This document shows positions 1 through 24,100 of a stretch of 30,226 nucleotides of DNA, piece after piece. Both the position numbers and the translations under genes were made by a program. Origin of the DNA: a virus; the IMG/VR virus record IMGVR_UViG_3300045999_003838, positions 1 to 30,226 of that record; one strand, 5' to 3'. The notes beneath the pieces were generated by a model that saw only the letters and a list, made by a program, of their open reading frames with translations, was not told where the DNA came from and did no database searches. Within the stretch, counting starts at the first letter, position 1; each line of letters starts with the position of its first letter.

Positions 1-622
1 AGCCACGAAGTTCATAACCACCTTCTGAAATTACACTAGAACAAACTTGTTTCAGTGTGCTTGAACTTGTTGTAATTCCAGTATTTGCAATCTCATATCT
101 CAAAGGTAATGATGCCGTTGTAATATAAGTTGAAGTGATTAAGTTTGCGTGATGGAATGAATGGCAGTGAATAAACTTCCCATCAACTACAAAACCCAAT
201 CTAACTGTTCCAAGTCCCAACCATTCAATATCCATCCACAAAATTTGTGCTTTGGAAATATCTAATGTAACACCAGATGGATTGAGATGCCCTGCACCAA
301 GCATCGTATCAATATTCCAGTTATGTTGCGAAATTTGTGTTGTTATTCCAGTAGATAAACTTCTTTCTACAAAATATAAAGTACTTCCATCAAGTTCTAG
401 ATACATTCCATTATCTGCACCAAAGTATCCTACTCTTTGACGAAGATTTGCTTTTGCTGGGTTCATTACAAAGGTATTCATTACTTGTAATGATTTTCCT
501 GGTTGATATGAAAATACTTTTGTAGTTTCTCTGATGATTGATGCGGTGCTTCCAACACCAACAGTCATATTAATCAAACCTTGTGCAGTTACAAATCCAA
601 CTGTTGAACCAGCACAACTAAA
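1..622 (-). pseudogene. Continuation of the frameshifted structural protein, running off the left edge
   Basis: Reading the minus strand from 622 in the -1 frame gives 207 uninterrupted codons to the window edge. The text is coherent: FSCAGSTVGFVTAQGLINMT, VFSYQPGKSLQVMNTFVMNP, NLRQRVGYFGADNGMYLELD, SKAQILWMDIEWLGLGTVRL, GFVVDGKFIHCHSFHHANLI and a final ISEGGYELRG. This is the body of the virion structural protein begun at 891. The gene is partial at the window edge. Function is unassigned; the beta-rich sequence and late-operon position support a structural role. Whether the break is real or a one-base sequence error cannot be told here. Confidence 0.75.
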
Positions 623-891
623 CCACTCCAAAGATTATTATCTCTATATCTGTGAGAACTGTCAAAAAGTGTTAATGGACTTGAAGTTCTTTGTCTACCA
701 AATGCATCAGTAGATGTTGATGGCAAAGTTACTGATACTGTCGATAAAGTTGAAATTCCAACAGTTCCTGTAACTGGAAATGGATTATCAACAGTAACTA
801 CTTCGCCATTCTTATTGGCGACCATATTAACTTCAAAAAGAGTTCTCTCTTGATTTAAAAAATCTTGAGTATTTTTATTAAATTGTGCCAT
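589..891 (-). CDS. N-terminal part of a frameshifted virion structural protein (100 aa as read)
   Basis: Begins MAQFNKNTQDFLNQERTLFE and contains DAFGRQRTSSPLTLFDSSHR followed by YRDNNLWSG. After residue 83 or so the frame reads a short unconserved-looking tail (LVVLVQQLDL) and stops at TAA. Sequence of the form GR.R.S.P.TLFDSSHRYRDNNLWS is, as I recall, typical of a longer T4-like cyanophage structural protein. The -1 frame continues with matching sequence from 622 to the window edge, so this is one gene broken by a missing base, probably a T in the TTT at 620-622. A GGAG sequence precedes the ATG, which lies three bases after the stop of the 104-aa gene. Confidence 0.75.
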   Translation of the reverse strand: MAQFNKNTQDFLNQERTLFEVNMVANKNGEVVTVDNPFPVTGTVGISTLSTVSVTLPSTSTDAFGRQRTSSPLTLFDSSHRYRDNNLWSGLVVLVQQLDL

Positions 892-894
892 TAA

Positions 895-1209
895 TCACTC
901 ACTCCAAGACAATCTTTCTGGTTGATATCTTTGCGTATTTTTAATTCTTAAAGAACTTTGTGATTGTGATGGGTAAATGTTATGAACAATTGCTCCAGGA
1001 TATTCACCCTGAAGTTGTTCTGTGAGAGCGTTTTTGTTCATCATCTTACCTTCAACTTCAATGCGATATAGTTTTCCTTCCCAAACTACATCAGCAAGAA
1101 AAGATTCGGTTGCTTGCTCTGGTTGAGATTCACCATTCATATAAAGATTTCCATTGAAATCTCCAGCGATATTGATGCTTTCTGATAAGAATTGTTGAAA
1201 AGATTTCAT
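895..1209 (-). CDS. Small protein with T4 capsid-targeting-like leader (104 aa)
   Basis: The N-terminus is MKSFQQFLSES. This closely resembles MKTYQEFIAEA, the capsid-targeting leader of T4 internal head proteins (recalled from memory), and it contains L-S-E at residues 8-10, fitting the [LI]-x-E cleavage rule of the prohead protease gp21. The remainder has VVWEGKLYRIEVEGKM and ALTEQLQGEYPGAIVHNIYP, a compact alpha/beta look, and a polar C-terminus (RYQPERLSWSE). It starts one base after the stop of the 535-aa gene and ends three bases before the next ATG, in one operon. A head-packaged internal protein is the inferred role; no enzymatic motif is seen. Confidence 0.72.
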   Translation of the reverse strand: MKSFQQFLSESINIAGDFNGNLYMNGESQPEQATESFLADVVWEGKLYRIEVEGKMMNKNALTEQLQGEYPGAIVHNIYPSQSQSSLRIKNTQRYQPERLSWSE

Positions 1210-1210
1210 T

Positions 1211-2818
1211 TTAGTTACAGTTCCAACGACGGAGGGCTTTGTTGATTCTTGAATCTGGGTCTCTAGCAGTCTTAGCGGAAGTCAATTTTGCTTTCATTCC
1301 TGACATACGACTACAAAAGTTTTTACGACGCTTTGCTCTTTTACCCTTTGGTTTTTTCTCAGTTACAGCAGTCTGAAGTTTTGAACCTGGATTCTCACGA
1401 CGATAAGCATTTACAGCTTTCTGACTAAGACCATCAGTTTTATCTTTGCGATTTACTGATTGCCAATCTTCAGAAAGTTCTTCTCTCCAGTTTGAAAATT
1501 GCTCTTTTTTTACGCAACGATTATAAGTTTTTCCAAATAGTTTTTGTGTTCCTTTTTTCTCATATCCTGGCCAACATTTTTTTGCTTCTTCAACATTATG
1601 CTCACCACTTTCAACATAATCTGCTGCGGTATCAATATAATCTGCCGCTTTAGTAATTTTTGATTGTACCCATGCCTCAATGCTTCCCTCACCCTTCATT
1701 TTTTTCTTTAAACGCTTCGCTGCAGAAATAATTGTTGAGAGTTCAGAGCGAGCCATTGAATACTCATGATCTTTTTCCTCATTTGCTGGGTGAGGACTAT
1801 TCGCATGATAATGAGGATTTGACATTGCCACTGATGACAAATTAATTGGTAAAGAATATGTATCCCAATATTTTGGACCATACTTACATTCATCTCTTAG
1901 TTCATTCTTTTTACATCTAGGGCAATATCTTTCCATATTAACTTGCTCCGATTTGGTTCCCCAATTATCAGCACCTACTTTACGACACTTGACAAGTGCT
2001 CCTGAAGCATAAGCACTTGGCCAAACGCTGTATCTTGATTTTACTTTATTATAGCAAGCGTCTTTTTTGCCGCTGCCTTTTCCTGGTTTATCTTTTACTT
2101 CTTGGAGATTCATTTCTTCTGTTCTGACATTTGTTGGACTTACTCCACCAGTTTTCTCTGGTTGGTTTGGATCTAATCTATTCTTTCTTCTTCTTGCTGA
2201 CTCTTCTTCATCTTTTGAGAGATCTCTTTTCATTTTTGAACTTCCACACTTTGGAGTGGAAGTCTGACCAGGTTGACGAGCACAAGGTTTTCCTGCCCAT
2301 TTACCACCTAGTTGAACCCATCCAGATTTTCCATCGGAAGACTTTGACTTACCAAACCAATCACGAAGTCCCTCATCCCCAGATTTAGTTTCTTCATAAG
2401 CCATACCAACTCTAGTATGCTTCAATTCTCCTTTTTGTTTAGCAATAAGTTTTTTTGAAGCAACTTTTGCACCCTCCGGAGCACTCATTACATTTTCATC
2501 TGGAGTTTTTCTACTTGGATTGTCATAAACATCCACATCACCATCAGCATCTCTATCAACATATTGCTTAACCGCATGATGAACCAATTGCTTTAGATCA
2601 AGATTTGGATCAAGTTGATGTTGAGATTTTGGTAAATGCTTTGTTTTATGAGTAAACTTTGTAAAAGTTTGTGGTTCCTTTGCTTCAGAAAAGGGAGACT
2701 TTGATTTAGTCACTTCGCCTCTTTGTCTTTTTTTACGAGCAGCACAATGAGATTTTTGAGAAAATCCTTTTGGACTATCACAATCAATTGATCTTTTATA
2801 TTTTTTAGACCAACTCAT
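1211..2818 (-). CDS. Basic, cysteine-bearing mosaic protein (535 aa), possible head-interior protein
   Basis: No known activity. It strings together short modules: DCDSPKGFSQKSHCAARKKR (12-31); a perfect EF-hand-like loop DRDADGDVDVYD (88-99); a DUF5872-like part with GLRDWFGKSKSSDGKSGWVQ and two Cys (150-192); KKDACYNKVKSRYSVWPSAY (251-270); a Cys cluster CPRC...DEC (C299, C302, C311); a long helix MARSELSTIISAAKRLKKKM (355-374); CWPGYEKKGTQ..C (415-435); and a C-terminal SQKAVNAYRRENPGS plus CSRMSGMKAKLTSAKTARDP block resembling DUF6321. Several modules are familiar to me from separate cyanophage proteins. It contains LQE (238-240) and LSE (448-450), which fit the T4 prohead-protease site. 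It sits where gene 17 is expected. The reading frame is unbroken and no rival frame is convincing. Confidence 0.8.
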   Translation of the reverse strand: MSWSKKYKRSIDCDSPKGFSQKSHCAARKKRQRGEVTKSKSPFSEAKEPQTFTKFTHKTKHLPKSQHQLDPNLDLKQLVHHAVKQYVDRDADGDVDVYDNPSRKTPDENVMSAPEGAKVASKKLIAKQKGELKHTRVGMAYEETKSGDEGLRDWFGKSKSSDGKSGWVQLGGKWAGKPCARQPGQTSTPKCGSSKMKRDLSKDEEESARRRKNRLDPNQPEKTGGVSPTNVRTEEMNLQEVKDKPGKGSGKKDACYNKVKSRYSVWPSAYASGALVKCRKVGADNWGTKSEQVNMERYCPRCKKNELRDECKYGPKYWDTYSLPINLSSVAMSNPHYHANSPHPANEEKDHEYSMARSELSTIISAAKRLKKKMKGEGSIEAWVQSKITKAADYIDTAADYVESGEHNVEEAKKCWPGYEKKGTQKLFGKTYNRCVKKEQFSNWREELSEDWQSVNRKDKTDGLSQKAVNAYRRENPGSKLQTAVTEKKPKGKRAKRRKNFCSRMSGMKAKLTSAKTARDPDSRINKALRRWNCN

Positions 2819-2830
2819 TGAACTACAAGA

Positions 2831-3256
2831 TTATTCTTTATTATTTAGAAAACCTTGCTTGAGTAATTTTGATAGCTCCGATGTTGATCCAACAAATAAA
2901 GCATTGTTTGTGACATTGTTTGTTGTTTTTACTGTATCTTCTTCAACATCCTTTAATTTCTTTTGTAAATCTATAAGTTTATCAGTTACATCACCAACTG
3001 ATTTGATTAATTGTCCAGCAACTTCATATGCTCTGGGAGAACCACCCTCTCCTGCCAGTTCCATAATGCCATTAATTGCTTCTTGTCCCTTTTCAATCAA
3101 CGAATATAAGTTTGCACGAGTATATTCATAATCTTTTTTAATGTCATTACTCAGTTCCTTAACGGTATCTAAAGTAGGTTTGTAGTTACTATCTACTTCT
3201 ACAATGCTACTTTCAACATTCAGTGCTTCATCAATTTTTTCAAACTTATTTGCCAT
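2831..3256 (-). CDS. gp16: Small terminase subunit gp16 (141 aa)
   Basis: DNA-recognition and regulatory subunit of the packaging motor. Helical protein with residues 41-60 KDYEYTRANLYSLIEKGQEA, SPRAYEVAGQLIKSVGDVTD at 73-92, LIDLQKKLKDVEED at 94-107 and NVTNNALFVGSTSELSKLL at 114-132. T4 gp16 (164 aa), from memory, shows the same order: [48 protein letters not shown]. It directly follows gp15 as in T4. The next gene is not the large terminase gp17, which is unusual for T4 order. No strong ribosome-binding sequence is seen before the ATG. Confidence 0.83.
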   Translation of the reverse strand: MANKFEKIDEALNVESSIVEVDSNYKPTLDTVKELSNDIKKDYEYTRANLYSLIEKGQEAINGIMELAGEGGSPRAYEVAGQLIKSVGDVTDKLIDLQKKLKDVEEDTVKTTNNVTNNALFVGSTSELSKLLKQGFLNNKE

Positions 3257-3271
3257 GATTTTACCAATCTA

Positions 3272-4318
3272 TTAGATATCTATACTTCTAGATGGGCTAA
3301 AGTCTCTAGAATCTGTAAATGAGAATAGATTTTCGTTGAATCCAAAGTCATCATCAATATCAACTAGAGCATCATCAGCGGCAGTTAGTTTGTCAATTGA
3401 TGTACTTTCTAAATGAGTTGTAATGGAACTTCCATCATATCCTCTCTTCACCGCAATGGTTGTTCCGTCAATAACTTCTACAATCTTCATAATTTCACTA
3501 TTAATAATGATTCTATCTCCTGCTGACATTCCTGTAGATGTAGTAATTGTTAATCTTGTTTCTGTCTTGGTTAGAGCTTCTTTTAAAACAGATACATCAT
3601 CGTTATTATAATCTTTGAGTGCTTTTGGTGACGCAGTATACCTTAATTCACGCTTTGCAGTTTCTCTATTTGTATCAGCATAATAATCAACCTGAACCTT
3701 ACGAATGAGTCCATCTGTAGTATCTGCGATTGGACCAAACATATAGGTCTTAGCAGTAAATTGTAAAGTATAAATCAATGCTCTTCTGGTTGAAAAATCT
3801 CCTTCATAATCATCTTGAAAAGAAATACTATCCAAAACAACACTTATATCTCTCTTTTCTCCAATTGAATCTACAAGATCAATAGTTAAATTAAAAGATG
3901 GTTGAAAATAAGGAAGTATTTGTTCTACGATTTGAAGAGAGTCATCATTCAATTTTGTTAAAATATTAACTTCAAATCCAATATTATATGGGACTGGCAT
4001 ATAAACTTTTTTTAGGTTTGTGCCATCCGATGCTTTAAAGGTTTGAGTAACGCCTGCCTTTCTAGTTGGATCATACTGAATGGAGTTCATTTCAAACGAC
4101 ATTCTTGGCAAAGATATTTGAGTTGCCTTATTTAAGTTTGGTTGCTGCTCAATTCTTGCTAAAAACTTTTGAACTGGACCATATGCCAGAGGAACTCTCA
4201 TATCACTAATTTCACCATCATTGGAATTTCTGTGGCGAATGTGGATATCATTAAAGATTGTGCCAAAAGAAATGACAGTCCTCCTAATGATTTCGTGATA
4301 AAAATAGGTTCCTAGCAT
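3272..4318 (-). CDS. gp15: Tail sheath stabilizer / tail completion protein gp15 (348 aa)
   Basis: Hexameric cap at the head-proximal end of the tail that stabilises the sheath and joins the neck. T4-like features: N-terminal FYHEIIRRTVISFGTIFNDI; MRVPLAYGPVQKFLARI near 40-56; the diagnostic QIVEQILPYFQP at 129-140; KRDISVVLDS at 155-164; and a TRRALIYTLQFTAKTYMFGP strand ending GLIRKVQVDYYA. T4 gp15 (272 aa), from memory, has QIVEQILPYFQPHFN and GLIRTTYTDF. Residues 250-303 form an added module, GDRIIINSEIMKIVEVIDGT followed by KRGYDGSSITTH, also found in gp7 and the DUF4815-type protein. Start overlaps the gp14 stop by one base. Confidence 0.92.
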   Translation of the reverse strand: MLGTYFYHEIIRRTVISFGTIFNDIHIRHRNSNDGEISDMRVPLAYGPVQKFLARIEQQPNLNKATQISLPRMSFEMNSIQYDPTRKAGVTQTFKASDGTNLKKVYMPVPYNIGFEVNILTKLNDDSLQIVEQILPYFQPSFNLTIDLVDSIGEKRDISVVLDSISFQDDYEGDFSTRRALIYTLQFTAKTYMFGPIADTTDGLIRKVQVDYYADTNRETAKRELRYTASPKALKDYNNDDVSVLKEALTKTETRLTITTSTGMSAGDRIIINSEIMKIVEVIDGTTIAVKRGYDGSSITTHLESTSIDKLTAADDALVDIDDDFGFNENLFSFTDSRDFSPSRSIDI

Positions 4319-5745
4319 TAGTAACTTCCAAATGGATTTGTCTGTGAGAAATCTATGAAGGTGTCTGCTTCTTCTTCAATTTCGTCGTTTTGTTCATATT
4401 TATCATATATGTCCCTATGATCATAAGATTTAATAGTATAAAGAGCATATCCATCAGAAGTAGATGCCGCTGAAACTGTAGATGCTGTTCCAATAACAAT
4501 TTCTCCTGGAATAAATCCACTGACAGTTGTACCGATACCAACAAGAGAAACCTTAAGAACTTTTGTATCCGAATCCCAAGACTTGACTCTTCCTTCTGTT
4601 CCCGAAGTTAATCCTCTTACAACCTCATTAAATCTGTAAGTACCTAAACCAGTAATTAATGGTGGTGATGCGATAGTGACTGTTGGTGTGACTGTATAAC
4701 CAACTCCTGTATTTGTTACTCTGAGTGATGAAACTTGAGTATCTGGATTGATAATTGCCACCGCTGTTGCTGTTGTTCCAATTCCAGGAGAAGAAATTGA
4801 AACTGATGGTGCGGTTGAATATCCTACGCCAGTGTCAGTTAATGTGAAACTGATAACTCCACGAACTTCACTTTCTATTGAACATGTGGCTGCTGCACCA
4901 ATTCCATTTCCTCCAGTGATTGTTATAGTTGGTGGGGCAATGTATCCTGATCCAGCATTTGTTAATATTATTTGTTCTATGGAATAAATGCCAGCTTTAT
5001 TTGTGGTAATAGCAACTGCTGTGGCATTGATTCCTCCAGATGGTGCTGTTGAAATCGCAACAGTTGGTGATCCGGTATATCCACTACCATCATTATTGAG
5101 AAAAATTTGTCTGATATATCCTGTAGTTGCACTTAAATTGGCATTGGCAGTAGCAGTTCTTCCAAGTCCAATCAAGTTTAGAGTAGTTATGAATCCAGTA
5201 TCTTGAATTGTTGTATCTATTTCGTCAATAGAAGTATCAAGAACTTCATCTTCATATTCAAACAATTCACATTTCAGTTCATAAACATAATTTCTACCTA
5301 ACTGATAGAAAGGTTGTTCATGCTCTACAAATTTAACCTCAAAAAGTCTTTGACCCAATGGAAAATAAATAAGATCTCCCTCACGAGGTCTAGTTGATAA
5401 TTCAATTTCATCATCTGGCATTGCTGCTAAAAACGCAGCAATAAAATCTTCAAATCTTTCTTTGGATATTGTTATGACAAGTTCGTCCCTCAAACTCATT
5501 CCAAATTTTGTTAAAATGTCTCCGGCACCAGAATACCCCTCATAAGTATTCACATATGCCTCAATTAAAAAGTTATCATCAAATCTTGATGATTGTATCT
5601 CCTCAATGATGGTTTGTTTTCTTACAAATTTTCTTGGTATATAAGTGACTTCTACACCATAGATCGTCAACTGTTCATTGATAAGATCTTGTACCAGTCT
5701 TTGTTCGCTAGGTGATCCTTGTAAGAAAAAGGGATTAAGTGCCAT
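4318..5745 (-). CDS. gp14: Neck protein gp14 with a repeat-rich insertion (475 aa)
   Basis: Second neck protein, working with gp13. Residues 1-190 match T4 gp14 in order: LTIYGVEVTYIPRKFVRKQT, YVNTYEGYSGAGDILTKFGM, REGDLIYFPLGQRLFEVKFV and EQPFYQLGRNYVYELKCELF. T4 gp14 (256 aa), from memory, has GVECYYVPREYV, NSFEGYEGAKSFFSNFGM, EGDLIYFPMDNSLFEI and DPFYQLGQN. The last 20 residues (IDFSQTNPFGSY) also resemble T4's short acidic tail. Between them lies about 250 extra residues with four GxGY...P.[VI].I repeats and a TSGTEGRVKSWDSDTKVL module, absent in T4 gp14. Overlaps gp13 and gp15 through TAATG junctions. Confidence 0.88.
   Translation of the reverse strand: MALNPFFLQGSPSEQRLVQDLINEQLTIYGVEVTYIPRKFVRKQTIIEEIQSSRFDDNFLIEAYVNTYEGYSGAGDILTKFGMSLRDELVITISKERFEDFIAAFLAAMPDDEIELSTRPREGDLIYFPLGQRLFEVKFVEHEQPFYQLGRNYVYELKCELFEYEDEVLDTSIDEIDTTIQDTGFITTLNLIGLGRTATANANLSATTGYIRQIFLNNDGSGYTGSPTVAISTAPSGGINATAVAITTNKAGIYSIEQIILTNAGSGYIAPPTITITGGNGIGAAATCSIESEVRGVISFTLTDTGVGYSTAPSVSISSPGIGTTATAVAIINPDTQVSSLRVTNTGVGYTVTPTVTIASPPLITGLGTYRFNEVVRGLTSGTEGRVKSWDSDTKVLKVSLVGIGTTVSGFIPGEIVIGTASTVSAASTSDGYALYTIKSYDHRDIYDKYEQNDEIEEEADTFIDFSQTNPFGSY
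4670..5110 (-). repeat. Four tandem GxGY beta repeats inside gp14
   Basis: Four units of about 40-50 residues: GSGYTGSPTVAI, GSGYIAPPTITI, GVGYSTAPSVSI and GVGYTVTPTVTI, each preceded by a hydrophobic strand (Q-I-x-L-x-N, S-L-R-V-T-N and similar) and followed by a small-residue stretch such as G-I-G-T-T-A-T-A-V-A-I. The same unit occurs in gp7, gp8 and the DUF4815-type protein. The nucleotide sequence is diverged, so the repeat is a protein-level one. Confidence 0.85.
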
Positions 5746-9433: not shown

Positions 9434-9570
9434 GCGAGAGCAATAACGCTTAGATCTTTAAATCTTGGAGCATATGCTTCATTACTTCCAGAGCACACAA
9501 TCTTAATGGCAAATCCTGTAAATTTATCAAGATTATCAGCACTAAACTGATATTCTAAGAATTGGTTGTC
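9430..9570 (-). pseudogene. Frameshifted C-terminal tail of the DUF4815-type protein
   Basis: In the -1 frame relative to the main gene, the minus strand reads D-N-Q-F-L-E-Y-Q-F-S-A-D-N-L-D from 9570, then FTGFAIKIVCSGSNEAYAPR and FKDLSVIALA, ending TGA at 9430-9432. An ending of the form IKIV...N.A..PRFKDLR.IALA is, as I recall, usual for the C-terminus of large cyanophage structural proteins of this type. The TGA overlaps the next ATG as ATGA, as expected for coupled genes. Inserting one G beside 9570 (GAG-AC to GAG-GAC) restores one continuous protein about 40 residues longer. It is either a true one-base deletion or a sequence error. Confidence 0.75.
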
Positions 9571-12500
9571 TCTAGATCTCTACTAGAAGGAACAAAAGCA
9601 TCTGATCTGCCGCTGTTTAGAGTAGCGTCAATGATCGTCTCTCCAAATCCATCACCATTCAAATCTCTCAAGTTATCATACCCTGGGAATAGTTCATAGG
9701 ATTGTTGAACTTCACTAGAATCTGGTCTAAAGAGTCTATAGAGAACTCTAAAGTCAGCGGAAGAATGTCTATAAGCAGAAACAAGAACTTTAAGTGAAGT
9801 TGCTGGTTGTTTCAGATCAACTCTATTTGAAATGTAAATGGCGGAGTGAGGATCTCCAGATATCAGTTTAACCCTGGAATCAGTAGAATAATTTACAATT
9901 GGGGCATTAACTCTATTTCTTTGTAGAATTAGAACGCCATTCTGACTATCAATTACGGGAGAAAGATTAGGATCTTGTGAGTTAAATTGGATTGCCAGTG
10001 TTGTTGATCTATTCTTAGGAAGATCAGTTAGTCTGTTTGTCTCATTAATTTCGGAACAAACAAGTCTTGTGGAAGAAACTCTATTAACTTGATTTAATTC
10101 AACAGGTTCATAACCTTGATCAATAAATGAGATTTCGGATCCACCAGCACTTGTTCCAGAAACAGATCTTAATTCTGCTGAAACAGATGTTGTTTCTCCT
10201 GGAGTAATAACATTAAATTGTGGAACAATAGCGTTGTATTGGAAGTTTTGTGAAGCAAATACCTCCATTCCTCCAAGTGATCTTTCATCTGTGAAACTCA
10301 GTTGAGTATCACCAGATGGTCTGTTTGATCTACTAATTTGTAAGTAATACTTATCAATGTTTTTAGATGCTTTTAGAGCAGAATCAGTTGGCATATCATG
10401 AGTTGTGTTGATCTTAGTGAGAGAAACTCCATTTAATTCATACTTATAGCAAAGATCATTAACATTATGAGTTCTGGTTAAGGAACCGTCTATACCTCTT
10501 GTGCCAATACCAAGTGTTCCAGAACCAATGCTGTTATAGTAAATAATTTCATTATTAATCTTGACATATCCAGTTGAAGTTGAAATACCTTCAAAAGTAG
10601 CAAATGTTGAAGTGCTGGCAACAGAGATAGTTGTTGCATCAACCGCAAGATTGGCAGTTAAAAGAACTGGAGCAGTATTTGGTTCAATATCGGCAAGAGT
10701 AACCTTGTTATTATCTGCCATCATACCATGATTATAATGCTCAACTTCAACAACTCTACCATCATATAGATTGCTGATGAGAGAAGAAGATCCTCTAATA
10801 TCAGTATTCGCCACAGCAACAGCAGTTGATCCTTCAAAGTAAACTAAATCTTGACCATTAGTAAACTCTTCACCTTGAACATTTGTTAGGTACAATGTAT
10901 CAATTCCATTAATGTTAGAAACAGTGATTGTAGCACTAGATCCCTTAACAACATTACTGGTTGTAATTCCCAGAACATCACCTATCGCATAACCATTTCC
11001 TGGAGTTGTAATGGAAACTGCAGAAACAATATTTGAAGATATTGTTACAACACCGACCGCTCCAGAACCATTTCCAGTTACTGAATAGAATGACACTCCA
11101 GCAAATGTTCCGTTTGAATATCCAACGCCAGTATTGGTAAGTGAAAGAGCAGAAACTCTACTTCCAATATTTTCAATATATCCGTAAGGACCTGATGAGT
11201 TAGTTTCGCTTACCTTTCTACCTGGAATCAAAATACTACCCATTGTTGTTGTAGTTGTAATTCCAACTTTTAACTTTCTAGGTAATGTTTTAATTGGATT
11301 TGGAAGTAGTCTTGGGGTTTGACTATTTCTAGTCCCTAGTTTAGGATTATAGAAATAAACTGTGCCAAGATTTTGGGTAAACTGTGCTTTATAGAGAGTA
11401 AATTTGAGATCTTCAAATTGGCTTGGAGTCCAAATAGTTCCATTCTGTGATTTAAATAGACTCCCTCCTAAGTATTGCTTAGTTACAACTACACTTTCAG
11501 CATCTGGTAAATTCTGAGTATTTACAGTTCTTTCACCCATTCTTGCGATCCAAGTTTCATAATTATTTGAAGATGGTGAAAGAATTACAATCGCATATTC
11601 CTCACCTGGTTGTAGATAGACAGGTGATGGGAATGTAACTCTTGTGGCAACAGATCCATCAGAAGACGTATTGACCTGAGATGGTTCAAGAGTGACTCTT
11701 GCGAAGTCTTGAACCAATTGATCTGTTGGTGTTCCAAGCTCTACAGTTCTAAGTTCAACTGTAACTTTTTCATTTTCATCTTTGCTAGCAAAGAATAGAT
11801 CAACAGAAGTCAAGAATGCTCCAGTTTCATCAACAGTAAATGTTTGAGCTAGAGGATCTTTTCCACCGCCACGATTATTCTGTGCTGGTGGTGGTGGTGG
11901 TGGTGGTGGGGGTGGTCTTCTTACAATAACGTCAGTTTGTCTAAATGTATCTACAATACCACTTGTGGAATAACTAGTTTCAGCACTACTAATTAATAGA
12001 CTTCCAGGTAGTGGAGAGGCATTTGTAGAACTAGATGTGAGTTTAAATGTCTTAGTGCCAGTTCTGAATCTCAGAGTTGGTGGAGGTGATGTTAGTGGGT
12101 CTCTGAAGAAGAATGAACCACCTAGATCTCCAAAAGTATCGGTAACCAGTCTTATATTGGCAACAGATGCCTGAGCACCGCTAGTTCTACCAATTAAGAC
12201 AGTACCAATAGTCACGTAACCAGTAAATCTTCCTTGTGCCTCTTCAGATAGAGAAGCAACGTCTATATTCAATACTGTTGAAGATGCTGAATATGTTGAA
12301 GGAAGACTGATTGAGGTATTGTATGGATTGGCATTAAATGTTGTTGCTGGATTGTTGATATCACCAGTTTTGTGGTTTGGTTGACAAGATCTAAATGATA
12401 TAACTCTGGTTCCACCTATAAATCCATCTACAGTTTCTCCATTTTGGAAAATACCAGATGTCATTGAGATTTCCAAAAGTTTTGGAACTATGTCAATGCC

Positions 12501-15500
12501 ACTAGTGCTATCAAAGAATGGATAGTATCTTGTTACTGGCTTTAATCCACCCGCACCAAAAGCAACGTTTCTTGAACGAATATGGGTATCTGGTTCGCTA
12601 CTGATTTTAATAGTCTCTACATATGAACCATCAAAATCTCCAGTGATTGTTCTTTCACCACCACTTACAAATATATTTCTAACCCAATTGTCGGATGCTG
12701 GTTCCAATTGAACTCTACCAACAAATTCAATCATATTAAATGGATTTACATTTTCCACTCTAGAAGCTAGAGGTTGCCCGATCCAACTTACTTCATCATA
12801 ATCTAATGTGATTAGATCTCCAGTTTTTCTGACATTAGAATCTAAAAGTTCAAGATTTGCTGAAAAATCGGCAGTCTCAGTATTGGTTGATGGTAATAAA
12901 GCTAATTCTGGTTTTAATGAATAGAAATCAAGAGGGGTGTTTAATTCTTGATTTTCTACATCAACATCACACTTACAATCAGGATTAAGTAGATCTAAAA
13001 GATCGTTGTTCTTAAAATCATCTACAAAGAATCCAGACTTAAATCTAGAAAGACCATCAGAATCTTGAATTTGGAGAGTTTTGGTATCAAGTTCAAGCAA
13101 ACTTAGAGAAGTAACTACCTCTAGAGTTGAAATCCTATCATCAAGTTTTCCAATATCTCTCATCGTATATCTTCTATTATCAACGAGAGTTATAACAGCA
13201 TCGTCTGGATCATAAAGATATGCCGGAAGTTTGATCGTTCCGATATCCATCGCACTTTCAACATTTGTTGGTTCTTTAGGGTCTAGGGCAGATACACCTT
13301 TGGCAATTGAGAAGTTTCCGAGACTATCAAGAATCAATTTATCAATTCTTGGCAGATAGTAACTATATCCAATTAAAGAACTTTCATTTGGTGCTATCAC
13401 TAAAGTGGGATTATTTCCAGATGAACCAAAATTTCTACTTGAAAAGGCAAATGGTGATGAAGTTGTAGATGTAAAGGAAGAAACTCTTGGTCTAAAGTCA
13501 AGAGTATCTGACGATCTCAAATTATTTCTTAAGAGAGGAATATCTTTTGTAAATCTCTCTTCACTATATGATTCTACACTATACAAGTCTCCAAGATCAT
13601 TAGATGGTACAGAGTAGTAGTTATATACTACCAATAACTTCCTGGTAGGTTCTGGGAAGTTGATTTTTCTAACAATTTTAGAATAATCATAATATTGTTC
13701 TTTCTGACCCTTGTCTAGATCAAATCTATTACTAATATTTAAATAATTTCCTACAGTTATACTTTGAATATTTGTTATGATGCTTGATTCTTCAAATGTA
13801 ACAGTTTCACCTACTGTGAAAGTTTGTGGAGTTAGATAACAGATCTCAACCTCGGTAGATGAAGACCTTGTAGCAAGTTGAGCAATAGCACCACTAGTAG
13901 AACCAACGATTCTTTCACCCAAGATTGAATTTGTGTCTAATGAAAGACCAGAAACAAAAGTTAATTTATCTAAAGTTGGGTTAGATGTGTCTAAAGATTC
14001 AAAAACACCAACAACATTAACAACATCGGGAACATTCAGTGAAATTTCTTTATCTTGAACTCTTAATCCGTAGAATTGACTTGTACTTAATCCACTCAGA
14101 GCAGTAGAGATACCAGAAAAAGTTTTGTCAATAATGACTTTTTGACTTCTAATAAAATCTTTTTGTTTATTTTTAATAAGATTTTTTCTTACGGTCGCAT
14201 TCAATGTCACATTGGAAGTTTGACTTACCCTTAATCCAGAGAAAACAATTTGTGATCCATTTGAATTAAGAGTAAACTGATCACCAGTTAAATCTTCTAC
14301 ATCACCATTTGAATAGTGAATTGAATATCTTTCCGCATCAAATGTCTCAAAGAATGCGCTAGAAATACCAGTGGAAGTTATGTCAACACTTAAAGATCCA
14401 ACAGAATTGGATGTAAGTTCTCTAAGTTGAGTTGTGACAAGAAGATTTGAGTTTGAAAGACTTACATCTGAAACATTGGAGGCATCCAATGGAGCGTAAA
14501 GTCCAGCATTTTCATCATTAGTGATATTTGGAGTACCAATAGAAAATGTTACCGACTGATCTGAAGATGGAAGACCACCATTACAGACACCAAATACACT
14601 AGAAACACCAGCAAGAGTCATTGATGAACCATTGCTAGAGACAGATACGACTCTGTTATATGTTTCAGTCGTTAATCCAGAAATTTGATATCTAATAATA
14701 GTATCACTTCTAATTCCTAAGAAGTTTTTACCTGGGCAAGTTACTGTTCCTGCACTTGTACCCCCAGTGATTGTTACCCTATCGGTAATATTAAATCCAG
14801 ATGGAACAAATCTTTGAAGAACAGTATCAGCAACAAATGAAGTTTTGATTCCGGAAGATATTGAGTTTGAAGACTGGAAAACTGATTTAATATCTTGAGT
14901 ATTGAATGCTTTAACACTAACAATACTTCTGGAATATTCTGTCGTTTCATTTATTAAAATTTGCTCACCAGCAATAAAGGTTCCAGAAGTTTGAGTTAAT
15001 GTTATATCTACTCCAGATACTGCCGAAACAACATAACCAGAAGCTCCGCTGCTGACGCCTCTAATGTAAGATGTTGCTGGGCACTGATTTGAATTTAGAC
15101 TTTGATTTAAAGTTAGTTTGGTAAATGTCTGTACGTCAAAAAGATATAAATCCCACTCTGTTCCATCGTTTGAATAAGCAGCATCGCTTAACCCAAATGA
15201 ATATACTCTAGCTTGTCCAATCTCAGTTCCAGTTCCAGATCCTTCAGATGCCTTTCTTTGATTATATAATGACAGGGTATTATTCCCAGTATTAATGCCT
15301 ACAAATGGCGTTCCAGTAACATTATTAACTTTGAGTAGGTTACCCATCTCAAATGGCACTAGAGAAGTTCCTACGGTTGCCTTATCTCTTGGTTTATCTA
15401 CATCTAGTATTGTCGTTGCTTGCTTTTCAATATCAAATCCCCTTACATAAGCTTTTCCTGGGGAAATCTTAATACACATTAAATCATCAGACGGAATATT

Positions 15501-16526
15501 TCCAGAATCAGTTACCTGAGTAGATAGATATATTCCCTCGTTTGAAATTCCATCATTTAGTGAATTTGCTACTTGAACATTAAATTTATCTACTGCATAA
15601 TCACCAGACTCTTCATATGTTCTCTTCGCAAAATAGTCTTTTATAATTGAATATTCAGACTTGTTTTGTAATTTCTTAACTTCTCCATTATCAAGTCTAA
15701 TCAGTTCAACAAAACTTTTGTCGTTAAAATCTGTTAATGGTTTTTTAGATAAAACTGTAGAAATTTTTAATCTATCTGCTCCAGGTGCGGCATAGTTTGA
15801 AAATCCTCTAGCATTGTCATAAAGACTAGAATCATCTTTAGCAGTAACAATTTCTTCTAAAATGTTTAATCCAACTCTATATGAAGGAGTGTTGGAATAT
15901 GGATCCAGAACAATTTTATCAGTTGCTACATCTACAAAAGTACCTCTAATGAAGTAAACACCAGAAGAAATTCCAACGGCACATCCAATTGCCGAAGCAT
16001 TTAGGGAAACTAATGTGGCAACAGTATCTCCAGCATTAATGGAGGTGTTTCCATAAACAAATGATTCTTCGGTAATTAAAAATTCACCATCATTTAATGT
16101 TTTAACAATATTATCAGATCCAGATCCAAGATATTTGACAAATAAAGTTAAGTCTGTAATTTCTGTTGAATCTGCTGGGAGCAGATACTTATCAACTACT
16201 ACAGTAATCCCAGAATCTTGACCGGTTAATCTTTTTCCTACTAATTGATCTACGTATAGTGAAACTGGAATTCCTAAATGATCTTGATTTAATCGTATTG
16301 AGTAATATTCAGAATCGTAATTAATATTACCTGGGATCACCATGGATCCCTCTTTAAAGATATGACTTCCGAAGGACTCTATCTGGTTTTGTAATATTGA
16401 TTGAAGCGTCGTTAATTCTCTAGCCTGTACTGGGTATCCTGGCTTGAATAAAACTTTATAAAAATTATTATCCTTATTAAAGTCATCATAATAAGGATTG
16501 ATATTTAAATTTGTTTTCTGTGGCAT
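9555..16526 (-). CDS. DUF4815-type virion structural protein (2323 aa as read; C-terminus lost to a frameshift)
   Basis: Large structural protein, probably at the baseplate periphery, in the slot T4 fills with genes 9 and 10. The N-terminus has NINPYYDDFNKDNNFYKVLF, then PGYPVQARELTTLQSILQNQ and HIFKEGSMVIPGNI, the pattern I associate with DUF4815 proteins of T4-like cyanophages (about residues 1-600). Ten consecutive prolines at residues 1538-1547 are followed by a Gly-rich linker. After this comes a beta-sandwich-like part starting LAQTFTVDETGAFLTSVDLF with YLQPGEEYAIVIL, then two GxGY repeats and a R-G-x-x-G-x(4)-H module near 10440-10660. The frame ends RDLETTNS-stop, but the -1 frame continues into a conserved-looking tail described separately, so the true gene likely runs to 9430. 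Equating it with T4 gp9 or gp10 is not supported by sequence. Confidence 0.8.
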   Translation of the reverse strand: MPQKTNLNINPYYDDFNKDNNFYKVLFKPGYPVQARELTTLQSILQNQIESFGSHIFKEGSMVIPGNINYDSEYYSIRLNQDHLGIPVSLYVDQLVGKRLTGQDSGITVVVDKYLLPADSTEITDLTLFVKYLGSGSDNIVKTLNDGEFLITEESFVYGNTSINAGDTVATLVSLNASAIGCAVGISSGVYFIRGTFVDVATDKIVLDPYSNTPSYRVGLNILEEIVTAKDDSSLYDNARGFSNYAAPGADRLKISTVLSKKPLTDFNDKSFVELIRLDNGEVKKLQNKSEYSIIKDYFAKRTYEESGDYAVDKFNVQVANSLNDGISNEGIYLSTQVTDSGNIPSDDLMCIKISPGKAYVRGFDIEKQATTILDVDKPRDKATVGTSLVPFEMGNLLKVNNVTGTPFVGINTGNNTLSLYNQRKASEGSGTGTEIGQARVYSFGLSDAAYSNDGTEWDLYLFDVQTFTKLTLNQSLNSNQCPATSYIRGVSSGASGYVVSAVSGVDITLTQTSGTFIAGEQILINETTEYSRSIVSVKAFNTQDIKSVFQSSNSISSGIKTSFVADTVLQRFVPSGFNITDRVTITGGTSAGTVTCPGKNFLGIRSDTIIRYQISGLTTETYNRVVSVSSNGSSMTLAGVSSVFGVCNGGLPSSDQSVTFSIGTPNITNDENAGLYAPLDASNVSDVSLSNSNLLVTTQLRELTSNSVGSLSVDITSTGISSAFFETFDAERYSIHYSNGDVEDLTGDQFTLNSNGSQIVFSGLRVSQTSNVTLNATVRKNLIKNKQKDFIRSQKVIIDKTFSGISTALSGLSTSQFYGLRVQDKEISLNVPDVVNVVGVFESLDTSNPTLDKLTFVSGLSLDTNSILGERIVGSTSGAIAQLATRSSSTEVEICYLTPQTFTVGETVTFEESSIITNIQSITVGNYLNISNRFDLDKGQKEQYYDYSKIVRKINFPEPTRKLLVVYNYYSVPSNDLGDLYSVESYSEERFTKDIPLLRNNLRSSDTLDFRPRVSSFTSTTSSPFAFSSRNFGSSGNNPTLVIAPNESSLIGYSYYLPRIDKLILDSLGNFSIAKGVSALDPKEPTNVESAMDIGTIKLPAYLYDPDDAVITLVDNRRYTMRDIGKLDDRISTLEVVTSLSLLELDTKTLQIQDSDGLSRFKSGFFVDDFKNNDLLDLLNPDCKCDVDVENQELNTPLDFYSLKPELALLPSTNTETADFSANLELLDSNVRKTGDLITLDYDEVSWIGQPLASRVENVNPFNMIEFVGRVQLEPASDNWVRNIFVSGGERTITGDFDGSYVETIKISSEPDTHIRSRNVAFGAGGLKPVTRYYPFFDSTSGIDIVPKLLEISMTSGIFQNGETVDGFIGGTRVISFRSCQPNHKTGDINNPATTFNANPYNTSISLPSTYSASSTVLNIDVASLSEEAQGRFTGYVTIGTVLIGRTSGAQASVANIRLVTDTFGDLGGSFFFRDPLTSPPPTLRFRTGTKTFKLTSSSTNASPLPGSLLISSAETSYSTSGIVDTFRQTDVIVRRPPPPPPPPPPAQNNRGGGKDPLAQTFTVDETGAFLTSVDLFFASKDENEKVTVELRTVELGTPTDQLVQDFARVTLEPSQVNTSSDGSVATRVTFPSPVYLQPGEEYAIVILSPSSNNYETWIARMGERTVNTQNLPDAESVVVTKQYLGGSLFKSQNGTIWTPSQFEDLKFTLYKAQFTQNLGTVYFYNPKLGTRNSQTPRLLPNPIKTLPRKLKVGITTTTTMGSILIPGRKVSETNSSGPYGYIENIGSRVSALSLTNTGVGYSNGTFAGVSFYSVTGNGSGAVGVVTISSNIVSAVSITTPGNGYAIGDVLGITTSNVVKGSSATITVSNINGIDTLYLTNVQGEEFTNGQDLVYFEGSTAVAVANTDIRGSSSLISNLYDGRVVEVEHYNHGMMADNNKVTLADIEPNTAPVLLTANLAVDATTISVASTSTFATFEGISTSTGYVKINNEIIYYNSIGSGTLGIGTRGIDGSLTRTHNVNDLCYKYELNGVSLTKINTTHDMPTDSALKASKNIDKYYLQISRSNRPSGDTQLSFTDERSLGGMEVFASQNFQYNAIVPQFNVITPGETTSVSAELRSVSGTSAGGSEISFIDQGYEPVELNQVNRVSSTRLVCSEINETNRLTDLPKNRSTTLAIQFNSQDPNLSPVIDSQNGVLILQRNRVNAPIVNYSTDSRVKLISGDPHSAIYISNRVDLKQPATSLKVLVSAYRHSSADFRVLYRLFRPDSSEVQQSYELFPGYDNLRDLNGDGFGETIIDATLNSGRSDAFVPSSRDLETTNS
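11886..11915 (-). repeat. Near-perfect CCA (TGG on plus) triplet run encoding ten prolines
   Basis: On the plus strand, TGG triplets with one GGG interruption run for 30 bases and encode ten consecutive prolines (nine CCA, one CCC) in the DUF4815-type protein. The run is flanked by Arg-Arg on one side and a short Ala-Gln-Asn/Gly-rich stretch on the other. It probably forms a stiff linker between the N-terminal part and the C-terminal beta-sandwich part. Triplet runs like this vary in length by slippage. Confidence 0.9.
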
Positions 16527-18106: not shown

Positions 18107-21100
18107 CTACCCAAGATCCTTTCTCAAGGCACCACTATCTCTTAGTCCATAATCTCTTCTCTGAATTGATGGGAATGTAGAAAGTCCAGCATCAATTGTG
18201 AATCCAGTTACACCAAGAGATATTGGATTACTTGATCTATTAAATCCAGACAGTCTTCCCCAAGAGAATCTACCTATTGGTTGACTTGTTGATCCAGATG
18301 TGTTAATTCCAATGATATTAGATGAGGAATGAACATTTGCCACTATTTCAGAATTTGATCCACTAGAAGTAATAGAGTGAATGTAGTAAATATTATCCAA
18401 GAATGTTGTTCCAATTCCTACAACAGCAGAATTACTTCCATCTATAGAAGTTACTCCAGATCCAACTGAGGTATTGAAAATGTAAAGTGGATATCCAGTT
18501 ACAAGTCCAACAAAAGATGTGGCATTAAGATTAAACTTAAGTGCTAATGGATTTCCAGAGGTTCCTGAAGTAGTGCTGATTCCTGTAATAATTCCAGCAA
18601 ATCCCTCCACTGTAGTGATGTTGTTAACATCTTCTTTTGAGAATGTGGGTAGAGGAGAAAGAACTTGAGGAGGATTGTTTTGTGAATAACCAAACCCTTG
18701 GTTCACTATAGTCGTAGAAGTTACTTGCCCATTTGTTATCGTAGCAGTCGCAGTTGCAGTTGTTCCAACACCAACACCAACTGTAGGAGGCGCAGATATT
18801 GAAACAGTAATTGCTGAACCAACATAACCACTTCCAGAACTTACGATACTTAAAGATTGGATTGTTCCTCCTGCCGAAACTACAGCAGTAAGTCCAGCAG
18901 CAACTGGAGAATCTCCCGTAACAATTAATCCACCGACACTAGAAATAACCAGAACAGAGTTATTTTCCTCATAGTTAAAGAATTGTGCGTCATCAACAAA
19001 TAATTCCGTGGCACTAGATGAAAGGTTCTTGATTATTCTAGCAGTTGGGTAAACTAGAGATTCAATTGAGTCTCTAGACTTATAAACATAATCGCCATTA
19101 ATATATCTATCAACCTTTTGCTTAGTCCAACTCAGAGGTTTAAAGTTAATTTGATCTATACCCTGATCAACATAAAGATTTGTCTCAATTTTATCAGATG
19201 ATGCTATATTGTAAATTGTCCTTAGATTTTGATCAATTGTTTGTGGATAGTTGTTATTCTTGAATACTTGTACAGCATCTCCAACCTTAATAGTTTCATT
19301 GATAGAAACAGATATACTATCAGTTCCAGTGGTTCCTTTATAGAAGAAAATTGAGATATTATCCTCTGGTTCTGGGGGAACCATGAATGTGAATGAAGTC
19401 CCCCCTTCAAACGTATAGGATTCTCCAGGAGTCTGTAATATACCATTTACAAATATTAGTAGTAAAGAATTTAAATCTATTAGAGAAGAATCTGGGTCAT
19501 TACTATTAACTTCAAAACTTATAAGTTGTCCGTTATAATTTAATGGGAATCTTAAACGATTTCCATCTTGTAGACTTAAAATTGAATCAATATAGTCAAA
19601 TTCACCAAATTCCCATGATGATAATCTATCAGTATATACATCCAATACGGTCAATTGGAAATCATTAATTGGTGATGCGAGTCTTCTATCTGTAACCAGA
19701 CCAACAGGAGTAAACACATCTCCCACTTTAAATCCATATCCAGTTCTAGCAATCTTAAACGAAGTGACCTCAAACAATGTTGATCCTATACCCGTTGTGG
19801 AACTAGCACCAACATCAACTGTTACGAGCAGTCCAGATCCACTATCTGTTGTTGCCCCAGCCCCAAGTCTTGAAACTCCTCTAATTTCAAGGTTTTCATA
19901 TGAAGGTTGAGGTATTTGAATAGTTGGATTTGTATAACCAGTTCCAGAGTTTACAATTGTAAATGCTAAAGTTCCACCCAGACCAACTATTGCTGTGATA
20001 GAAGCAGCAGTTCCAACATGTCCAGTCTGAGTGATTCCAATAGAAATAGTTCCACGATATCCAGATCCAGAAATATCAGTTGTTCCCAAACCAACCGATA
20101 CAATCGTACCACCAGCACCAACAACAGCAGTTACAGATGCTCCTACGAGAGGAGCAATGCCAAGTCCACCACTTGAACCAAGAGAAACAATTACACCACC
20201 ACGAGGTAGTTGATTTTGATTTACATCAAATTGACTCTTTACAATAGATCCATTTGAAGAAGTAATACCAGTAAAGACTACACTAGAAACTCCAACATTT
20301 TCAATAAAGGAATAGTTATTACCGGTATTGTTTATTGTTGATGGTTTTTGGAAAATTCCATTCAATAACAAAATTCCACTTCCTGTTTGTATTCCTGTTG
20401 TGTTAATACCTTGAACAGTTACTGTGTAAGTTTGTCCAATTCCAGTGAATCTATCGGAAATATCATCAAAGATTCTATTATTGGTATAATCGTTTCTTAA
20501 ATAGACTCTACCATCAAATGAAGATCTTGTATACTCTAAATTAGAAGAATCTCTTAAAATTGTATTTTTACCTTTTGGAGCATCTGTAAAGTAAATTTTA
20601 TTTCCTACAATATTAAAAGATCCAGAGTACAATCTGACTTCAGTGCTATCAGCATGAGATGTTGCTGATGTGCCGACAAATGCCCTACTAACTTCCAGTA
20701 GATTTACGCTACCAGATCCACTAATTGGACCAGTTGATGTTGTTCCAAAACCAACTGAAACAACTTTCATATATTCATCATCTATTCTTACAATATTATT
20801 TGGTCTTATTGAGGTTATTCCTGTAACACCAAAAACTGTAGAAGAATTAGATATTTGACCACCATTGTTATACAAGTTAGTCTTAATTGGTGTAAATGCT
20901 AACGGAGATTGAATGATTCCATCTATATCAATTAAAGTCTTTTCATTCTTTTTATACATCTCAAGTTCATGAGCATTTCCAGAACCTAGAGAAGTAAATG
21001 TTACATAAATTCCACTAGATGCAAAATTTGATCTTGTTGAAATTCTAAATCTATCTTTATTAATTCTTATTGCGTATACGTCTGATGGTAAAATATTTGT

Positions 21101-24100
21101 TACAACTCCAACAGAATTTAATGTGGATCCAATTCCAACTGAAGAAGCAGCAACTCCAACAAATGTTGAATTTGGAGTATAGATTAATTTTTCTCCAGTA
21201 TTAAAGAAGTGATCTTGAATTGTAAATATACCTGTTACTGGATCTAAAGTCGCAGAATCTGATGGATTAAATTTCTTCTCAAAGATAGGAACACCTTCAT
21301 AATTAAGTGAAAAACTAGTTTTATTTGCTCTTGTTCCATTAATCGCATCATATTGAAGTAGAGATAATGATTCTGTAACTGGTCCATACAATAAGTCTGG
21401 AGCAGTATTCGCAGAATCACTTTCAGTATAAATTACTTCACTGAAAGTTTGAATTTGAATATTACCAGAAACTGAAGGATCTGGATGGAAAAGAAGATTA
21501 AAGTTAGATCCATTATATTGTGTTGAAAATGTTCCAATTCCAGAAGTACTTCCAATGGATATGAATGGATATTGAACATTATATGTGTTTTGACCATTAT
21601 GCGCCATCAGCACTTGATGAATAGCACTTGTAGATCCATAAGAAACTCTTATCAAGTTCTTAGAAGTGGTTACTTCGGAAGTACTAAATCCAACAATAGT
21701 TGATGCTGATGATACATTAGAATAATTGGACTCTAACTTTAGGGATCTTTCTGTTCCATCTATTTGTTGAGTCTGTTTGAATCTATAAGTACCAATTCCA
21801 GCAGCAGTCGTCCCAAATCCAACAATCTTGGATCTAACTAAAATTTCATTAGAAGTATTGTTTTCATATTTTAAGTATAAAATCCCAGAATCTATATTTG
21901 ATGTGAAAGTGCCAATAAAGTTAGATGAGAAAAGTGGGGAAGATCCACTATCAACATAGTATTCTGAGAAATACGAATTAGTTCCGTCATGAGTTACATA
22001 TAATTCTACAAAATTCTTTTCACTTGTAGAATTATTGGTAACCTCTACCGTAGCATAATATGAATTAGTATTTAAAATATTGTCAGAAATAATTTCAGAT
22101 GTTTGTCCAGCACTTACGATTCTGTTTACACCTGTTAAATCCACAAATCCAATTGATTGTGTAGAAATTCCCGCTAGATCACTATTGAATGTATTTTTGA
22201 AAACTTTGATATCATAATCACTATCATAGGCATCTGCTGGAGTAAATCTTAAACTGGAGCTTCCAAATTCATCAGTATTAGCAGATATTTCAACTAATTC
22301 TTGAGAACTATTAAACAGATTTGATTTTTCAAAAGTAAATGTATCACTTGAATCATTATAGAATGCCAATTCAGTGACCTGAATGTCATCATTATTTGGA
22401 TTTACAATTTGAACTAAAAATCTTGAGTATTCTTCGCCAATAAACAAATCAACATATTGATCCAATGGAGATAGAGAATTTGAGAATTGTGAACTTATAT
22501 CATCTATTTTTAATACTCTATTTGTTCTACACTCAATATAATCTGCTAATTTTTTATTTTTTAATTTTAAAAATTTTGATTTATTATCAACAACATCAAC
22601 ATCTAAAGTCAAATCATAATTATTAATTGTATCTACTCTCTTTTCTTCTAAAATATCAAAAATACTTATGCTATCAACTGTTGATGATCCGACAGAAACA
22701 TTAGATGTAGATAGTACCTCGGTGTCGGCAAAATTCTTAAGACCGCTGGTGTGTAACAGACGATTTACTGGATTGATTAGATTTTCAAATTCAATCGGAC
22801 TCTTTACAGTATAAGATAAAGACTGGTAGTAGTCATTATCTGGAAGAACCTGATAATCTTCGTCTAATTTTCCAATATTATCTGACCAACCGTAATCTTG
22901 TCTCAGTGAATAATTAACGTTGAATCTTCCATAGTTGTCAACTATATCATTGATTGTGGCAATAGATCCGCTTACAGAACCCTTAATAGTCTCATTAAAC
23001 CGTAACTTGTAAGTACCATAAACTTTAATGTAATCGCTACTACTTTCAGTTACTAAAAGATCGATAATTACAAACTGACCATTTGATAATACAAGTAGGT
23101 TTTCTCCTACTTGGAAAATAGAAGATTCTTGTGTAACTCTAAATCTTGGATAATCATCATATTTAACTATGGACGCATATGAATTTTGTGACGTTTTAGC
23201 AATTCCAGGATTTGTGCTAAGTCCAGATAGATTAAACTCAACTTCAGCTGGGTTTGTATTTCTATAATCAGTTACAGTAAAGAATTGGTAGTCATAATTT
23301 GTGGAATTAAATCCATCGCCAGTGGTGTCATACTGTTGAATCCCTTCAACAAAAATTTTCTCACCAACATTAAATGTTGAGGTGCTGAATCCAGAAATAG
23401 GTGTGACTAAAACGCAAGTTACAATTCCACTTGATGATGAATATACAGTTCTTACAGTAACTCCATTACTATTATTGATGGCAACAATAGACTGCTCGGT
23501 TGCACCAAGTCCTTTTGGAGACTCAATAATATTAACATCTACAATTGATGTTCCATTCAGAGATGCTTGTAATATTCCTGTGGTAACTTGATCCCCAGTT
23601 TCTGGATTGACAATAATAAGATCTGGAGCAGATGTATAATTTCTACCACCATACGAAACTTCAATATTAGTAATCGTATCTGAATTAATTAAAGATACTA
23701 CTGGAGATACAAATGCTTCTGGTCTCAAAGTTTTATCAGATGAGTATTCAAATCCAGGATCTATAATCCTAACACTATCAATTCTGTTAATATTTCTGGA
23801 TTGTGGTAAAATCTTAGCATTAAGTCCTTGAGTAGAAGCAATACTTACAAAAGTTGGAAGTTTTTTATATCCAAATCCACCAAACGTAATTTGGAACTTA
23901 TCAACACCACCTCTAGCGGTGGTTGAATTTGTAGAATACTCCAATACATCTGTATTTGAAACACTATATGTTAAAGATTCTGGTATCTCTCTTAGTGAAA
24001 GATTAAATGAGGTAGTTCCAACACCAAATACCTTATAGGTTCCATTATACTTACTATCAACATAAGTTATTTTGGAATAATTTGATACATCAGTATCGGA

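Follow-up and report, generated by a model that had tools for sequence, protein, structure and literature searches.

The 535-aa protein encoded on the minus strand at positions 1211..2818 of the window, which is the whole 30,226-nucleotide stretch of virus DNA analysed (IMG/VR record IMGVR_UViG_3300045999_003838), is a mosaic of small modules. Each module forms a separately conserved block, and the majority recur on their own or in a different order elsewhere. The protein has a pI of 9.7, a net charge of about +46 and 13 cysteines, in agreement with the original prediction of at least seven differently styled modules, rich in Lys and Arg with Cys spaced through. We give about an even chance to the reading that its small basic modules, DNA-binding-like in character, form a string of head cargo that the prohead protease may cut.

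Modules, module order and folds

All coordinates in the window refer to the minus strand. M1 (SPKGFSQKSHC, Cys13/Cys25; residues 1–35, 2714..2818) also exists as a gene of its own, 51 aa long, immediately ahead of mosaics lacking M1 in the loci L051, L052, L053 and L075. An EF-hand-type loop, DRDADGDVDVYD, predicted from its letters, is present by sequence at residues 88–99 (2522..2557) and is missing from many orthologues, although no Pfam family, EF-hand ones included, scored over residues 1–110. M2 (WF..GW..KPC..C; residues 148–224, 2147..2377) also exists as a single gene of approximately 80–95 aa, represented by 62 distinct sequences, and M3 (DACY...WPSAYASG..VKCRK; residues 248–290, 1949..2077) as a single 47-aa gene in Roseobacter phage CRP-7 and related loci. 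The suggested likeness of one segment to DUF5872 (PF19197) came down to a sub-threshold match of 15.3 bits on the M3 residues, under the gathering cut-off of 27.5. M4 (CPRC...C, ribbon-like; residues 294–327, 1838..1939) is defined by module profiles, and the helical module H (residues 349–404, 1607..1774) recurs in proteins of S-H35, HTVC008M and Flavobacterium phage immuto. M5 (CWPGY...NRCVKK; residues 413–439, 1502..1582) changes its place in the order between phages. M6 (residues 451–535, 1214..1468) is the predicted DUF6321 segment, matching PF19846 at residues 458–532 with 51.3 bits (1.8e-13; gathering cut-off 28.5 bits). The cysteines are mostly paired, one pair per module (13/25, 179/191, 255/278, 415/435 and 502/534), with an extra site outside the pairs (C299-x2-C302...C311), and profile searches recognised no enzymatic domain in the 535-aa protein.

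Searching with each segment separately showed that the modules do recombine among phage proteins, as had been anticipated. According to per-module profiles, the commonest order is M1-M2-M3-M4-H-M5-M6; the window version reads M1-EF-M2-M3-M4-H-M5-M6, without the FW domain (that of the 104-aa neighbour), and other orders include M2-M3-M5-M4-H-M6, M4-M2-M3-M5-M6 and H-CKPG-M5-M2-M3-FW, among more. The modules of phage S-CREM2 are split over two loci, with ORF137 (FW and M6) between the genes for the small (TerS) and large (TerL) terminase subunits and ORF160 (M2-M5-M3) elsewhere.

AlphaFold models residues 451–535 as a compact five-helix fold (pLDDT 95.1, pTM 0.79; 71 diverse sequences). This M6 model had no credible counterpart in the PDB (Foldseek E-values of 4.5 or higher; VIA Z scores not exceeding 2.7), while a viral structure library returned DUF6321 proteins, the S-SCSM1 ‘Virion protein’ among them; at sequence level, too, neither the whole protein nor the M6 and M2 profiles found anything credible in the PDB. 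The full-length model has a mean pLDDT of 47 and a pTM of 0.19, from an alignment of only 29 sequences, with M1, M2 and M4 locally better and very low values in the linkers, and no credible PDB match. A single unified fold is thus disfavoured, and beads on flexible linkers fit better.

Family, gene order and stand-alone counterparts

The phrog_727 profile matches the mosaic at 3.4e-107, spread over three stretches. The family, named T4-GC119 by Sullivan et al. (2010), includes Syn9 gp114 and lies within Kyanoviridae, so that the cassette, originally thought undescribed, holds a gene family already known under three names. tblastn with the mosaic found matches in 468 phage records, a viral_contigs search found 527 relatives, and S-SRM01, a reservoir Synechococcus phage, was the closest named relative found. 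Among 41 genome_contigs matches, nearly all are metagenome bins or single-cell assemblies and several adjoin phage terminase or tail genes; the one in an isolate assembly (Nonlabens) lies on a contig that bears phage genes too, and a cellular origin was rejected. PADLOC gave no match to defence or anti-defence families.

The T4-like cyanophage record that makes up the window is incomplete; in it, gp13-, gp14-, gp15- and gp16-type genes are followed by the mosaic, the 104-aa gene (895..1209; phrog_1742) and a phrog_1645 virion structural protein gene lying in two frames (2..891). The terminase small subunit gp16 (2831..3256; phrog_445, 1.6e-54) is directly upstream of the mosaic. The phrog_1645 gene is 4 nt shorter near 616 than in the near-identical L003 and L006, and is one continuous gene in L003; its split therefore probably reflects either an artefact of sequencing or assembly or a mutation that arose recently. 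Elsewhere in the window, the gp14-type neck protein (4318–5745) has an additional C-terminal part like virion fibre or baseplate protein repeats (phrog_701, phrog_5342), and two huge ORFs of 2,323 and 3,957 aa (9555–16526 and 18107–29980) lie upstream of the neck genes.

Gene order was counted in 80 fetched relative loci, with TerS checkable in 75 and TerL in 24. TerS was directly upstream of the mosaic in 75/75, and TerL lay 16–2,294 bp downstream in 23/24, usually beyond the 104-aa gene and a single gene for a virion protein; in L007 (7608–7782), which has neither the 104-aa nor the phrog_1645 gene, TerL follows the mosaic almost directly. The mosaic is therefore a gene of the gp16–gp17 interval, and TerL is not displaced. 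No terminase family scored on the mosaic ORF in Pfam and PHROG profile searches, and PF03237 was not found in the whole record. The original prediction had placed the mosaic where the large terminase is expected; replacement of that subunit is ruled out by its presence, intact, downstream in the relatives, and the window merely ends before its position. The predicted location after gene 16 was correct; the gp16–gp17 interval is a known hot spot of extra genes (PMC3037559).

As predicted, modules also occur alone in other marine phages. In CRP-7, homologues of M6 (84 aa), M3 (47 aa) and M2 (80 aa) are the adjacent genes gp65-gp64-gp63 a short way upstream of TerL, near the terminase gene like the mosaic, but as three genes instead of the one fused protein of T4-like cyanophages. 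In 23 other phage loci, the same three modules are again neighbouring one-module genes, often directly before TerL, and a single M6 and a single M2 lie within 2.5 kb of each other in 57 of 58 loci. Stand-alone M6 proteins have a median length of 85.5 aa, a pI of 11.4 and a charge of +22, and 122/130 have exactly two cysteines; stand-alone M2 proteins are alike. DUF6321 is thus the last bead of the chain in the mosaic and often the entire protein elsewhere. It stands alone in T7-like marine podoviruses, among genes labelled portal, scaffold, capsid and tail-tube by matches to one reference genome, and a tiny Lys-rich basic gene (GLYANIHAKRKRIKAGSGEKMR, phrog_16028; for example, L089 5201–5377) lies within 800 bp of stand-alone DUF6321 in 36/37 cases. 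Among the papers searched, none names DUF6321. The cryo-EM paper on P-SCSP1u describes a capsid without a decoration protein, and a term search of it gave nothing on the DUF6321 gene product.

The modules are also fused to other domains. DUF6321 and M5 precede NUDIX, DUF2213-like and acidic-tail regions in L103 (1604–4210), L121 (4668–7094) and L140 (4626–7160, with a TerL gene upstream), a fusion that could be a combined protease–scaffold protein with modules. A 1,218-aa protein (L136, 1557–5213) joins a PolyVal-type ADP-ribosyltransferase (ART) to a C-terminal DUF6321, and the S-SM2 mosaic (L084, 5096–7222) has a DUF192 domain (3.6e-24) inserted into it. The modules thus act like tags attachable to other proteins.

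Candidate cleavage sites, leaders and virion proteomes

T4 gp21 cleaves after the E of L/I-x-E (PMC9026906), and the T4 gp23 site LTE|A is retained as LTE|A in S-CREM2 gp23. The two L-x-E sites noticed originally are exactly placed, lie at conserved module junctions and match this specificity: L-Q-E (residues 238–240, 2099..2107) in the M2–M3 linker and L-S-E (residues 448–450, 1469..1477) before DUF6321. In 39 representative mosaics, L/I-x-E was present in 35/37 M2–M3 linkers (7.6 expected) and 20/24 M5–M6 linkers (5.8 expected), and M4–H linkers showed no enrichment (1/28 vs 2.2 expected); many mosaics have no such site before M5 or M2. Directly before the DWQ that opens M6, P1 is E in 28/28 and P3 is L in 23/28, while P2 takes 11 different residues; a fixed E, a mostly fixed L and a free P2 are as expected of a protease site. 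Over whole linkers, the motif occurs 115 times vs 74.7 expected (1.5x), which was dropped as proof of cleavage since Lys/Glu-rich control proteins (1.4x) and TerL (1.36x) give similar ratios; likely head substrates (scaffold, protease and capsid, two sequences each) range from 2.2 to 2.95. Two features alone stand out, placement at the junctions and freedom at the central residue, and they are seen in orthologues that share ancestry and are not independent. The predicted cut at 450/451 coincides with where the folded M6 domain begins, and the predicted 85-residue piece starts with DWQ; this aligns with an AWQ close to the N-terminus of DUF6321 proteins that stand alone. Judged from these motifs, cleavage of the mosaic at its L-x-E sites is evenly balanced in probability.

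The 535-aa protein starts MSWSKKYKRS, with no capsid-targeting leader found at its N-terminus. MKTYQEFIAE opens both T4 IPII and T4 IPIII, and in IPIII the initial 10 residues are enough for capsid targeting (PMC9026906); members of the 104-aa family open with MKSFQQF(L/I)SE, MKSFQQFLSE in the window, so that the leader protein predicted downstream does have a T4-type leader. The leader pattern matched 53 of the 3,784 ORFs in the loci compared that are 60 aa or longer: 51 members of the 104-aa family, S-CREM2 ORF136 and a 137-aa protein joining leader, CKPG and DUF6321 (L128). With S-SZBM1_192, a further leader–DUF6321 protein, this indicates that some proteins have a T4-type leader attached to DUF6321 itself. 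FW, the domain of the 104-aa protein, is a separate gene in 44 loci and fused into the mosaic in 12, and none of these has both; S-SCSM1 is an exception, with FW both separate and fused. The separate-or-fused pattern suggests a functional link between the mosaic and the 104-aa gene. The Lys-rich, 707-aa S-SZBM1_194 (L303, 3253–5376) contains an internal YREFIAE|G near-identical to the T4 capsid-targeting leader.

The S-SCSM1 orthologue was named ‘virion protein’ by its depositors, who ran mass spectrometry (MS) (PMC9602691). The S-CREM2 MS table lists ORF136 with 8 peptides, ORF137 with 4 peptides (4.1% coverage) and ORF160 with 7 peptides, and the S-P4 and S-B68 records carry the label ‘structural protein’, with no data shown. 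The 30-protein proteome of S-SZBM1 includes a phrog_1645-type protein (190), and the leader–DUF6321 protein 192, the 104-aa homologue 191 and 194 are absent from it. Because Lys-rich proteins yield few usable tryptic peptides, this absence is weak evidence. CsCl-purified virions may include contaminants. Absence from virions had been named as what would refute the prediction; relatives occur in two virion proteomes (S-CREM2 and S-SCSM1) but not in the third (S-SZBM1), and the mosaic family is probably virion-associated.

Possible roles of the mosaic

We propose that small, Lys/Arg-rich modules, most of them with two Cys, are strung on flexible linkers in the gene product, that this product is made with the head-building genes, and that it would most likely be head cargo entering with or on the DNA. 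The prohead protease of T4-like phages would probably cleave after L-Q-E 240 and L-S-E 450, and the last piece (451–535) would then have the size and start of the podovirus stand-alone DUF6321 protein. The freed pieces would probably bind or tether the packaged DNA and then go in with it, ejection being a step that we infer. A place inside the head is somewhat favoured; judged by charge, DNA-binding or DNA-condensing modules are a tentative suggestion. Module recombination, the separate-gene counterparts, the gene order, the podovirus head clusters with DUF6321, the charge, the junction L-x-E sites, the leader on the neighbouring protein and two proteomes speak for head cargo; the third proteome lists neither its DUF6321 protein nor its 104-aa homologue. 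The mosaic resembles T4 IPI, IPII, IPIII and Alt in its basic head-cargo style and in the L/I-x-E sites at its junctions, and the IP-type leader is found on the 104-aa neighbour and on some leader–DUF6321 relatives. It differs from the T4 proteins in having no leader, no recognised similarity and many modules per chain. With the inner-body or ejection proteins of phiKZ and SPN3US, it shares the concept of head proteins, present in abundance, being cleaved at x-x-E (PMC9026906), but they differ from it in size and domains.

The protein may instead be a component of the prohead core or scaffold, like T4 gp67, gp68 and gp22, whose modules help to build the core and which is cleaved and largely lost before DNA entry. 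Basic modules might attach to an acidic core, M6 and M5 are fused to the NUDIX, DUF2213 and acidic-tail protein in three loci, podovirus DUF6321 adjoins portal and scaffold genes, and MS signals are weak or absent. Against this, the S-SCSM1 and S-CREM2 relatives are still detectable in purified virions and stand-alone module genes lie beside TerL in phages with different head genes, and we regard such a role as unlikely.

Polyvalent proteins (PMC5512222) join enzymatic or effector domains, and the mosaic could be an injected host-takeover protein of this style, its small modules serving mainly as packaging or DNA tags for effectors. The C-terminal DUF6321 on the ART-PolyVal protein, the DUF192-bearing S-SM2 mosaic and other large proteins fit this idea, and some relatives thus carry such domains. 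However, the window protein has no recognised enzymatic domain and most copies consist of modules only, which makes it improbable. Also quite improbable is a DNA-packaging accessory, acting with terminase at the portal and not meant to remain in the head. This would suit the mosaic between TerS and TerL in T4-like cyanophages and the position of the M6-M3-M2 genes of CRP-7-type phages right in front of TerL, but podovirus DUF6321 is in the head cluster, away from terminase, no nuclease, ATPase or terminase family scores on the mosaic, and relatives are detected in virions. Finally, the published hot spot (PMC3037559) and deletions such as that in L007 would allow small basic genes to drift and fuse there with no common function, which is highly improbable given TerS adjacency in 75/75 relatives, the invariant cysteines and long invariant blocks across 29 diverse orthologues, and the same trio adjacent in unrelated phages.

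Extending the head-cargo reading, aquatic phages might share a kit of small two-Cys basic proteins that associate with packaged DNA, as single genes in podoviruses and CRP-7-type phages and as a polyprotein cut in-head by the prohead protease in T4-like cyanophages, a generalisation that we find possible if rather doubtful. A natural head-packaged polyprotein of interchangeable small basic modules would, to our knowledge, be new for phages. Single-gene counterparts, the leader and the junction L-x-E sites unite DUF6321, phrog_727, phrog_1742 and others in one hypothesis. The family is present in hundreds of sequenced cyanophages, beside packaging genes, and the hypothesis bears on what cyanophage heads contain and on what reaches the host first.
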